Positions 865-62,070 of a DNA stretch of 64,000 nucleotides are shown here, piece after piece (position 1 is the stretch's first letter; each line of letters begins with the position of its first letter). The DNA lies in the NCBI RefSeq assembly GCF_003725955.1, contig NZ_QIBZ01000006.1:62001-126000 (forward strand), in the 5' to 3' direction. The notes below the pieces were generated by a model, which was given only the letters and a program-made list of their open reading frames with translations, was not told the DNA's origin and did not search any database. This DNA comes from Slackia isoflavoniconvertens (GTDB lineage Bacteria; Actinomycetota; Coriobacteriia; Coriobacteriales; Eggerthellaceae). The translations under genes and the position numbers were made by a program.

Positions 865-1014
865 AGCCTGGCGCTGGCCCGACCGAAGTGCCCGCGAGGC
901 TACCGCTCGCTTTCGGCTCGCTTTGCGCCTCGCTCCGGTTTCCCGTTTTGAAAGATTTGAGAAACCGAGCACTTCCGTCGGGCCAGCCCAGGCTGTTCGG
1001 TTTGTGCGGAATCT
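865..1014. repeat. Imperfect palindromic intergenic region before dnaG, possible degenerate element copy
   Basis: The 281 bases between ribF and dnaG hold no gene. Bases 865-891 and 969-994 form a long imperfect inverted repeat (core GCTGGCCCGAC / GTCGGGCCAGC, extended by AGCCTGG / CCAGGCT and by GAAGTGC / GCACTTC). A 7-bp hairpin, CGGTTTC/GAAACCG, sits inside it. Just after the right arm, at 1004-1013, is GTGCGGAATC, the same block found in the palindromic elements at 19761-20013 and 61883-62070. CTTCGG-like blocks are also present. It looks like a decayed relative of those elements, but the match is weaker. Confidence 0.45.
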
Positions 1015-1088
1015 ATCGGATCAAGGAATTCGCGCCGCGAACAGTGCTTCTTGTTGAAGGGCAAGCGGCGGGATGGAAAGGGAACGTT

Positions 1089-18949: not shown

Positions 18950-19723
18950 ATGAGCGATCCTAAGCCCACCCAGTTTGGCCCGAATGGCGAGGCCATTGTT
19001 CCCATGCGCCTGCAGAAGTTTCTCGCGCGAGCGGGTGCTGCGAGCCGTCGTGGAAGCGAAAACCTCATGACCGCGGGTCGCGTGCGCGTGAACGGGGAAG
19101 TGGTAACCGAGCTCGGCAGCAAAGTGGACCCGCTGCGCGATGTGGTCGAGGTCGACGGCGTAGTCGTGCGCCTGTTCGATTCGTCGGTCACCATCATGCT
19201 CAATAAGCCTGCTGGATATTTGACCACCATGTCCGACCCCCACGGGCGTCCTTGCGTGGCAAGCCTTGTGCCTACCGATCGCTTCCCTGGGCTTTTCCCT
19301 GTAGGGCGCCTCGATATGGACACCACCGGCCTTCTGCTCTTCTCGACCGATGGCGAACTTGGCAACAGCTTGCTGCACCCGCGCCACCATGTCGATAAAA
19401 CGTACCATGCGCGCGTCGCGGGCATTATGTCGCAAGAGCAGGCGCAAGTCCTCGAGCGCGGAATCGAGCTCGAGGACGGTCCCACGTTGCCTGCTCAGGT
19501 GTGCATCGAACGCATAGCCAAAGGTAAAACCGATGTGGAAATCACCATTCATGAAGGCAGGAAACGCCAGGTGAAACGTATGTGTTCGGCAGTCGGCCAC
19601 GAGGTGCTGCAACTGCACCGCTCCAACTTCGGACCGCTTGCCTTGGATGGCTTGACGGAAGGGCAATGGCGCGAGCTCAGCGATGCCGAGGTGAAAGCCC
19701 TTCGCCAAGCCGCTGGCATGTAG
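18950..19723 (+). CDS. rluB: RsuA/RluB-family pseudouridine synthase
   Basis: A 257-residue rRNA modification enzyme. An N-terminal S4 RNA-binding domain (MRLQKFLARAGAASRRGSEN, about residues 19-75) is followed by the pseudouridine synthase fold with the catalytic Asp in PVGRLDMDTTGLLLFS and the KTYHARVAG and EGRKRQVKRM segments. RluB, which modifies 23S rRNA U2605, is more likely than RsuA from length and the co-location with scpAB seen in many bacteria, but the two cannot be separated by eye. It starts 3 bases after the scpB stop. Confidence 0.9.
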   Translation: MSDPKPTQFGPNGEAIVPMRLQKFLARAGAASRRGSENLMTAGRVRVNGEVVTELGSKVDPLRDVVEVDGVVVRLFDSSVTIMLNKPAGYLTTMSDPHGRPCVASLVPTDRFPGLFPVGRLDMDTTGLLLFSTDGELGNSLLHPRHHVDKTYHARVAGIMSQEQAQVLERGIELEDGPTLPAQVCIERIAKGKTDVEITIHEGRKRQVKRMCSAVGHEVLQLHRSNFGPLALDGLTEGQWRELSDAEVKALRQAAGM

Positions 19724-19760: not shown

Positions 19761-19883
19761 TTGCCGTTCGCCTCGGACCTCACGCTCTGCTTCGGGCAGG
19801 TCCTGGCTCGCTCGAAAGCCACATTACGTGGCTTCCGGCTCGTGCGGAATCTTGCGTATCGCGAGGTTCGAGGCTAACGGCAA
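19761..19883 (+). repeat. Palindromic intergenic element, copy B1 (forward)
   Basis: A 123-bp element. Outer arms 19761-19781 and 19863-19883 pair at about 19 of 21 positions (TTGCCGTT...GACCTC with GAGGTT...AACGGCAA). Inside are conserved block 1 CTTCGGGCAGGTCCTGGCTC (19790 onward), a variable hairpin AAGCCAC-ATTAC-GTGGCTT (19816-19834), and conserved block 2 GCTCGTGCGGAATCTTGCG (19838-19856). The same two blocks recur at 19899-20013 in reverse and at 61883-62070. Arms differ between copies but pair within each copy. Confidence 0.75.
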
Positions 19884-19898
19884 GGCGCAGAATCACTT

Positions 19899-20013
19899 GT
19901 TTGCGTTCGCTTCCCTTGGGCCGATAGATTCCGCACGAGCAGAACAGCACCTCATGTGCTGTTCGTCGCGAGCAGGACTTGACCGAAGCGGATCAAGGGG
20001 AGCGAGCGCAAAC
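19899..20013 (-). repeat. Palindromic intergenic element, copy B2 (reverse)
   Basis: The same architecture as B1 on the minus strand, 15 bases away and head-to-head. Outer arms 19899-19918 and 19994-20013 pair at 18 of 20 positions. Block 2 is GATTCCGCACGAGC (19927-19940), the variable hairpin is GAACAGCAC-CTCAT-GTGCTGTTC (19942-19964), and block 1 reads CGCGAGCAGGACTTGACCG onward (19967-19990). Arm and hairpin sequences are unlike B1, while blocks 1 and 2 are clearly related. Confidence 0.75.
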
Positions 20014-20052: not shown

Positions 20053-21387
20053 ATGACTGCCCAGGAAAACCTTACGACTATCGAGCCGGTTAACGGCCCG
20101 CTTGTCGGCAGCATCTCGGTGCCGGGCGACAAATCCATTTCGCATCGCGCGGTGCTTTTCGCGGCGATGGCCGAAGGCACCTCGCGCCTTTCGGGCGTGC
20201 TTGATTCCGAAGATGTGCGCAGCTCTCTTGGCGCGGTAAGCAAGCTCGGCGCCAAGGTGAACCTGGAAAAAGCTCCTGATGGAAGCCTGTATGGCGGCAT
20301 TACGGGTTGGGGCGTGAAGGGTCCCAGCGCGCCGAGCGAGCCAATCGATTGCGGCAATTCCGGCACCACGACGCGCTTGCTCATGGGAATTTTGGCCCCG
20401 TGGGATATTGAGGTGGAGCTCACCGGCGACGATTCGCTCCGCCGCCGCCCCATGCGCCGCGTTTCGGGCCCGCTTTCGAGGATGGGCGCGAAGTTTTTGC
20501 CCGAAGACCAAGACACGCTGCCGCTTACGATTCATGGCACGCGCAACCTCAAAGCGCTCGATTACGATGCGCCTGTTGCATCGGCTCAGGTGAAAACCGC
20601 AATCCTGCTCGCTGGCCTTTCCGCTGATGGCACTACGCGCGTCACGGAGCCCTCTCCGAGCCGCAACCATACCGAGCTCATGTTGCCTGAATTTGGCGCC
20701 CACACCACGGCTGCATCGGGTGTCGCCGAAGTTGTCGGCCCCACGACGCTTAAGGCGTCCGAGGTCGTGGTTCCTGGCGACCCGTCTTCGGCGGCATTCA
20801 TCGCGTGCGCTGCCGCTCTTATTCCGGGCAGCGCCATTCAAATCGAAGGCGTGTCGCTCAATCCTGCTCGCATCGGCTTTTTGCGCACGCTCGAACAAAT
20901 GGGCGTCGATGCATCGCGCCGCAGCGTGTCGTCTTCGGGTAAAGAACTCTCGGGCATCATTTCGGTGCAATACTGCGACAAGCTCCATGGTTGCGAGGTT
21001 CCCGCCGATAAAATTCCGTCACTCGTCGACGAAGTTCCCGTGCTCGCGCTCGTCGCGGCTCATGCGAAGGGCATCACGGTATTCCGTGGCGTCGATGAAC
21101 TGCGCGTGAAGGAAACCGACCGTGTGGCCGCCGTTATCGACGGCCTTGCGAAGATCGGCGTCGACGCCTGGGCCGATGGCAGCGACCTGTTCATTGAGGG
21201 CAATCCCGATTTGGTGATTCCTGAAGGCGTGAAGTTCGAAACCGGCAAAGACCATCGTCTCGCCATGACATGGGCACTTGCGGGTCTTTCGGGCAATTGT
21301 CCCGTTCAGGTTGCTGATTTCGAGTCGTGTGCGGTAAGCTACCCCGCGTTTCTTTCCGATATTCGCTCGCTTGTTCGTGAGCGCTAG
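20053..21387 (+). CDS. aroA: 3-phosphoshikimate 1-carboxyvinyltransferase (EPSP synthase)
   Basis: The shikimate pathway enzyme that joins PEP to shikimate-3-phosphate; 444 residues. ATG 20053 follows AGGAGGGG by 4 bases. Substrate-binding motifs are PGDKSISHRAVLFAAMAEGT, DCGNSGTTTRLLMG, and later SLVDEVPVLALVAAHAKG and RVKETDRVAAV. The gene begins an aroA-cmk-plsC-ispH run. The 329-base leader carries two palindromic elements, so expression may be influenced by RNA structure. Class I versus class II could not be decided by eye. Confidence 0.95.
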   Translation: MTAQENLTTIEPVNGPLVGSISVPGDKSISHRAVLFAAMAEGTSRLSGVLDSEDVRSSLGAVSKLGAKVNLEKAPDGSLYGGITGWGVKGPSAPSEPIDCGNSGTTTRLLMGILAPWDIEVELTGDDSLRRRPMRRVSGPLSRMGAKFLPEDQDTLPLTIHGTRNLKALDYDAPVASAQVKTAILLAGLSADGTTRVTEPSPSRNHTELMLPEFGAHTTAASGVAEVVGPTTLKASEVVVPGDPSSAAFIACAAALIPGSAIQIEGVSLNPARIGFLRTLEQMGVDASRRSVSSSGKELSGIISVQYCDKLHGCEVPADKIPSLVDEVPVLALVAAHAKGITVFRGVDELRVKETDRVAAVIDGLAKIGVDAWADGSDLFIEGNPDLVIPEGVKFETGKDHRLAMTWALAGLSGNCPVQVADFESCAVSYPAFLSDIRSLVRER

Positions 21388-61882: not shown

Positions 61883-62070
61883 GGATTGGAGCGGCTGACA
61901 TGCGTTTCCACTTCGGGCAGGTCCTGCTCGCTCGGACAGCCTACTATTGCCGCTCAGCTGCACGGAGCAGCAATGCGCCCGCTCGGGCGCAATTGAAGTG
62001 GGGTTTAAATGCCCACAGGACATTTAAACGTGCGGAATCTTGCGGATACGCACACCAGCCGCTCCAATCC
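61883..62070 (+). repeat. Palindromic intergenic element, copy C (large form)
   Basis: Outer arms GGATTGGAGCGGCTG (61883-61897) and its exact complement (62056-62070) enclose block 1 CTTCGGGCAGGTCCTGCTCG (61911 onward) and block 2 GTGCGGAATCTTGCG (62030-62044), as in the elements before aroA. Between the blocks this copy carries extra hairpins: TTGCCGCTC/GAGCAGCAA-type, TGCGCC/GGGCGCA-type, and GTTTAAATG-N9-CATTTAAAC (62003-62029). CCACTTC (61908-61914) also pairs with GAAGTGG (61995-62001). It starts 14 bases after iorB and ends 40 bases before the ACT gene. Confidence 0.78.

Follow-up and report, generated by a model that had tools for sequence, protein, structure and literature searches.

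A dispersed palindromic element of Coriobacteriia with a conserved hairpin core and arms private to each locus

Results

Two head-to-head palindromic copies lie upstream of aroA

The DNA analysed here (the window) is a 64,000-nt stretch of the Slackia isoflavoniconvertens genome. Between a gene for an RluB-type pseudouridine synthase and aroA, both assigned by Pfam, it carries two palindromic copies in opposite, head-to-head orientation, with the inner blocks CTTCGG..GTCCTG and GTGCGGAATC common to both (Table 1). A first-pass annotation, made from the letters alone, had described this pair and placed it before aroA. Both points hold: the copies are evident in the sequence and in a repeat search, the core model matches each of them at E ~1e-20, and they are intergenic. 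Its further claim, that the outer arms differ between the copies yet pair within each copy, is confirmed by complementarities of 88% and 84%. The left outer arm of copy 1 borders the upstream gene at its 3′ end. Folding z-scores were −6.6 for copy 1 and −5.5 for copy 2. The promoter-like sequence TGCTAGAAT that had been noted upstream of the copies does exist, as a candidate that agrees with the consensus at 9/12 positions (CTGGCA-17-TAGAAT). We looked for an intrinsic terminator (a GC-rich stem followed by a T run) or a terminator-like tail at the aroA locus and found none. The third copy, which had been placed at 61883, is also real; it follows the same plan of arms plus conserved blocks as the other two, but with a longer core.

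Table 1 Positions of the palindromic copies and flanking genes in the window
Feature	Position	Strand	Basis or remark
Probable decayed partial copy (TTCGGTTTGTGCGGAATCTATCGGAT), right-hand core block	963..1019	+	Core model 19.7 bits, E 7e-4
Pseudouridine synthase gene, RluB-type (S4 + PseudoU_synth_2), flanking	18950..19723	+	Pfam
Copy 1, left outer arm, locus-private	19761..19784	+	24 nt, 88% complementary to 19860-19883
Copy 1, conserved core (CTTCGGGCAGGTCCTG ... GTGCGGAATC), inner hairpin 19813-19837	19790..19857	+	Family-core model 78.1 bits, E 1.3e-20
Copy 1, right outer arm	19860..19883	+	Repeat search
Copy 2, right outer arm	19899..19923	-	84% complementary to 19989-20013
Copy 2, conserved core, inner hairpin 19942-19964	19921..19988	-	Family-core model 79.1 bits, E 6.9e-21
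Copy 2, left outer arm	19989..20013	-	aroA start ~40 nt further on
aroA (EPSP synthase), flanking	20053..21387	+	Pfam PF00275, E 1e-93
Third copy, long three-hairpin core containing GCGCCCGCTCGGGCGC, own arm pair	61884..62070	+	Core model match weak, as expected for a long core

A conserved core with private arms is dispersed in Coriobacteriia

The conserved part of the element, a core of ~70 nt with one inner hairpin, forms the tip of a palindrome; the outer arms of this palindrome (median ~25 pairs) are private to the locus. Arms pair within copies and not between them: the median pairing score of an outer arm was 21.9 with its own partner vs 7.5 with the partner of another copy. Cores are of a short type (CAGTCCT-CGCTGCGC-TGCGGAACTC), a medium type or a long type with an invariant GCGCCCGCTCGGGCGC, or the core is absent. 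We rejected the idea that the arms are copies of other genomic sequence, because arm sequences gave no long match elsewhere in ~1.1 Mb of sampled Gordonibacter blocks, except for the ACCTGCGGGG motif, and one arm sequence tested in 45 whole Collinsella genomes was found exactly only at its own locus, with two one-mismatch matches besides. No gene was seen between core halves, as in a larger element, in the 1.1 Mb, a weak negative since the search pattern was faulty for the GGAATC type.

A DNA search of the window's genome gave 37 matches at ~25 places. The core model matched 71 of the 138 genomes of the family, spread over 24 of 48 genera, and the most matches in any one genome was 33. Such numbers greatly exceed what chance would give. 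Further copies in related genomes, which the first-pass annotation had thought worth seeking, are therefore many, and their arms covary. Among the matches listed in a pattern scan of named genomes, nearly all were in Coriobacteriia (Collinsella, Gordonibacter, Slackia, Adlercreutzia, Ellagibacter and relatives); the five listed outside this class (L185, L239, L253, L255 and L257) are without paired arms and were set aside as chance. Searches of Rfam at gathering and loose thresholds (E up to 10) gave no match, which agrees with the earlier remark that no described family fits. The core pattern had no exact match in viral contigs, the arms and the element were absent in three viral scans, and a search of the literature turned up nothing relevant on a repeat of this kind in the group. 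We conclude that the copies are a dispersed palindromic element of gut Coriobacteriia, found in Eggerthellaceae and Collinsella.

Arms change together at orthologous sites

We compared a close pair of genomes, Gordonibacter sp. Marseille-P2775 (G113) and Gordonibacter sp. 28C (G115), which are collinear at ~92%. Across 14 orthologous pairs of copies, the arms diverged by 14.2% and the flanks by 13.7%. Doubly compensated positions numbered 40, vs ~3.4 expected if the two arms changed independently (~twelvefold). Arm changes between the two genomes were often clustered and multi-base, and included one compensated single-base insertion. At five loci the arms are similar and medium and long cores have been exchanged; three loci have a short core in one genome and a medium core in the other.

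Sites that lack the element in a related genome were also compared. The trmD gene of G115 carries an in-frame copy, and trmD is uninterrupted in three related Gordonibacter genomes, G113, G116 and G112. The left arm of this copy consists of native codons (GGGACCGGGGACGGAGGG; GGGGCCGGAGGCGGAGGG in G113), and the right arm, present only in G115, is an inverted copy of the left (CCCTCCGTCCCCGGTCCC). None of the three uninterrupted genes contains a palindrome, and the closest genome has the left arm alone. We found no target-site duplication at the trmD insertion. Elsewhere, the genome without the element at L298 keeps only the left arm and no core, G115:C7:86052 resembles this empty site over part of the arm, and two Collinsella genomes keep the outer left arm at an empty site; trmD excepted, these could be deletions instead. 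At several lineage-specific Gordonibacter sites neither arm is present in the other genome. In one nested case (G113:3461590) older outer arms enclose the element, with GCGATC on either side.

In Collinsella, we traced four loci in up to 45 genomes. Each of them has different paired arms at one site between conserved flanks, with up to five alleles, and whole arms are replaced on both sides. Single chimeric copies, whose left and right arms come from different alleles (L326, L374, L430; L326/L200), suggest homologous recombination inside the core. One locus has a further allele, a core-less palindrome with the same arms in seven genomes, and the core could either insert into existing palindromes or be lost from them. 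A stepwise series at an arm position runs from G-C (L311) through A·C (L317) to A-T (L320).

Copies lie next to genes and in frame within them

Of 43 intergenic copies in Gordonibacter, 41 follow closely after a stop codon and are in sense orientation. Orientation is mixed in the window's genome and in others, where the left arm usually adjoins a gene. On our reading of GC-skew blocks, 19 of 24 copies in G113 are co-directional with replication, a bias that adjoining genes may share. Genes interrupted in frame, as supported by Pfam, are trmD, rnr, tsaB, a DUF1385 gene, hisH and recQ; the protein sequence suggests a UvrA-like protein as a further host, for which Pfam gave no UvrA match. Both hisH (L249 and the Gordonibacter gene) and recQ (L201, L242) carry in-frame copies in two genera, in opposite orientation. 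When compared with the solved structure 4gud, HisH aligns on both sides of the insertion with nothing missing between. It was the same linker of RecQ, and likewise of HisH, that took the element in two genera. The element is thus dispersed, polymorphic in presence and in core type at orthologous sites, and inserted in frame into genes. From the insertion polymorphism we infer that it is mobile.

Paired positions show no preference for G·T over A·C

G·U pairs are tolerated in RNA helices but are not favoured in a DNA palindrome. In the outer arms of 108 distinct copies, we counted 83 G·T and 84 A·C mismatches with a strict trim, and 86 G·T and 103 A·C with a looser one. Of the 9 pairs of the core hairpin, 8 covary; 99.2% of its positions are paired, and the mismatches include 3 G·T and 9 A·C. 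As a control, 30 tRNAs of the same loci had G·T in 57 of 638 pairs (9%); only the G·T fraction of this control was used, since no A·C pair was bracketed. These counts make it less likely that an RNA helix is under selection on the core strand, an argument that applies to one strand and not to both at once.

Discussion

A proposed mobile core with template switching

Taken together, the mismatch counts, the orthologous copies, the empty sites and the Collinsella alleles make a mobile core plus template switching the simplest account. We think it probable that the copies belong to a non-autonomous mobile palindromic element, in which template switching during replication, around the hairpin core, both writes the arms and keeps them alike. 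The core would enter a site, and a replicating strand would turn round at the core hairpin and copy the adjoining left sequence back, which would create the right arm. Later template switching would copy mutations from arm to arm, so that the sequence of the palindrome could drift without loss of pairing. The inverted-copying step is proposed because the left arm in trmD is native and the right arm is its inverted copy; maintenance of the arms by template switching is proposed because doubly compensated changes exceed the independent expectation while the arms diverge like their flanks. Covariation would then need no RNA function to explain it. Simple left-to-right copying does not explain the replacement of whole arms at fixed Collinsella sites, and the empty sites that keep a left arm are few, which is a weakness for the copying step. 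The sites with neither arm, the core-less palindrome and the extra sequence next to the right arm in trmD also count against this account. We looked for a transposase and for a general target-site duplication and found neither.

A more far-reaching version, which we offer tentatively and consider possible rather than probable, is that this is a new kind of mobile element that carries nothing but the hairpin core. At every site it would generate arms for itself as inverted copies of host sequence, so that the target duplication left behind is inverted and not direct. Such an element would go on rewriting its arms, and strains of a single species complex would come to have different perfect palindromes at one site. 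If this is true, the element makes palindromes out of host DNA.

Alternatively, an enzyme acting in trans could move a MITE-like core into the tips of pre-existing palindromes, in which case the arms would be old genomic hairpins. The core-less palindrome with the same arms in seven Collinsella genomes, the copy nested in older outer arms with GCGATC on both sides, and the exchange of core types between arms that stay are all consistent with this mechanism. However, the uninterrupted trmD genes contain no palindrome, only the left arm in the closest genome; the arms have no relatives elsewhere; and no terminator-like tail was found at the aroA locus. We therefore regard this explanation as unlikely.

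The first-pass annotation favoured a structured RNA, either regulatory or small, whose helices are kept by selection, with the copies being paralogous RNA genes or leaders. Strong covariation, stable folds, the promoter-like site upstream and the sense orientation after stop codons of nearly all intergenic Gordonibacter copies would all fit such an RNA. However, the RNA reading is not supported, because neither the arms nor the core hairpin shows a G·T preference, vs 9% in tRNAs: G·T is no more frequent than A·C in the arms, and the covarying core hairpin has hardly any G·T. It is also opposed by the lack of an Rfam match, by variation in presence, core type and arms at orthologous sites, by the right arm in trmD, which is inverted coding sequence, by in-frame copies inside enzymes in either orientation, and by the mixed gene orientation in the window's genome and in other genera. 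We consider a structured RNA improbable. The palindromic mobile repeat that had been named as the alternative to an RNA was right in kind, although two textbook marks of such repeats were not found: the arms vary, and we saw no target-site duplication as a general feature.

Mobilisation as REP/BIME repeats by a RAYT (Y1) transposase, to which the palindromic, intergenic and sometimes head-to-head copies and the Y1 genes in many of these genomes might point, is very improbable given that arms are not conserved between copies, and it is refuted as a present-day association by G113, which has ~24 copies and no Y1 gene, and by 16 Y1 loci, none of which has a copy nearby.

Comparison with known systems

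By lifestyle, the nearest known elements are the Rickettsia palindromic elements, which are palindromic and dispersed, and lie both between genes and in frame inside unrelated genes (PMC10969869). The Coriobacteriia element is similarly short (~100-150 bp), palindromic and dispersed, and occurs in intergenic regions and in frame in unrelated housekeeping genes. It differs in lineage and, as far as a comparison by description goes, in that Rickettsia families are described as sharing family sequence, whereas here the core alone is conserved and the arms are locus-private and vary between strains at one site. With MITEs the element has in common that it is short, non-autonomous and multi-copy, with inverted arms and presence/absence polymorphism, but it is without fixed terminal inverted repeats, and we found no consistent target-site duplication or related insertion sequence. 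It resembles REP/BIME repeats in being palindromic and intergenic with paired copies, but differs in size, in lacking a RAYT association and in its arms, which are not conserved. Template switching, or quasipalindrome correction, accounts for perfect inverted copies, for compensatory changes that come in multi-base clusters and for the lack of G·U intermediates. It has been described as making and maintaining stems and is a documented mutation process (Monttinen and Loytynoja 2022, PMC8794818); there it is a general process in RNA genes, whereas here it would be linked to a conserved core that is dispersed.

A covariation signal usually counts as proof that an RNA is functional. The element gives a large and statistically strong signal of this type without a G·U bias, which is better explained by DNA copying, and covariation searches in Coriobacteriia and elsewhere could therefore report false RNAs. 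The ratio of G·T to A·C is a simple control for such searches. In addition, gut bacteria such as Collinsella and Gordonibacter now have an equivalent of the Rickettsia elements, which interrupt genes for housekeeping enzymes in frame.

Core variants and associated sequences

An alternate core occurs in Collinsella (L382, L329, L432-L445). It retains the blocks GTCCTG and GTGCGGAA, but in place of the internal loop GCTCGCAC..GGCTC it has CGCAAGAC..TTTGCG, which pairs. In Gordonibacter, the copy in trmD is accompanied by ~160 nt of additional sequence on the far side of its right arm. The motif YTTCRACCTGCGGGG lies just after stop codons in Gordonibacter blocks (L090-L109, L138-L177) and recurs 60-200 nt downstream of many copies, often preceded by GTGAGAGGGG; the inserted unit in this genus may be larger than the core plus arms. 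Other dispersed palindromes in Gordonibacter (L097 433-675, L308, L299) consist of CGTAGGGGCGATCTCCAGATCGCC and its mirror, GTCCCGAAAGGGGAC, and TGTCATCCYGAGCGGAGCG..GTCGAAGGATCC; the first of these stands in place of the element at one site.
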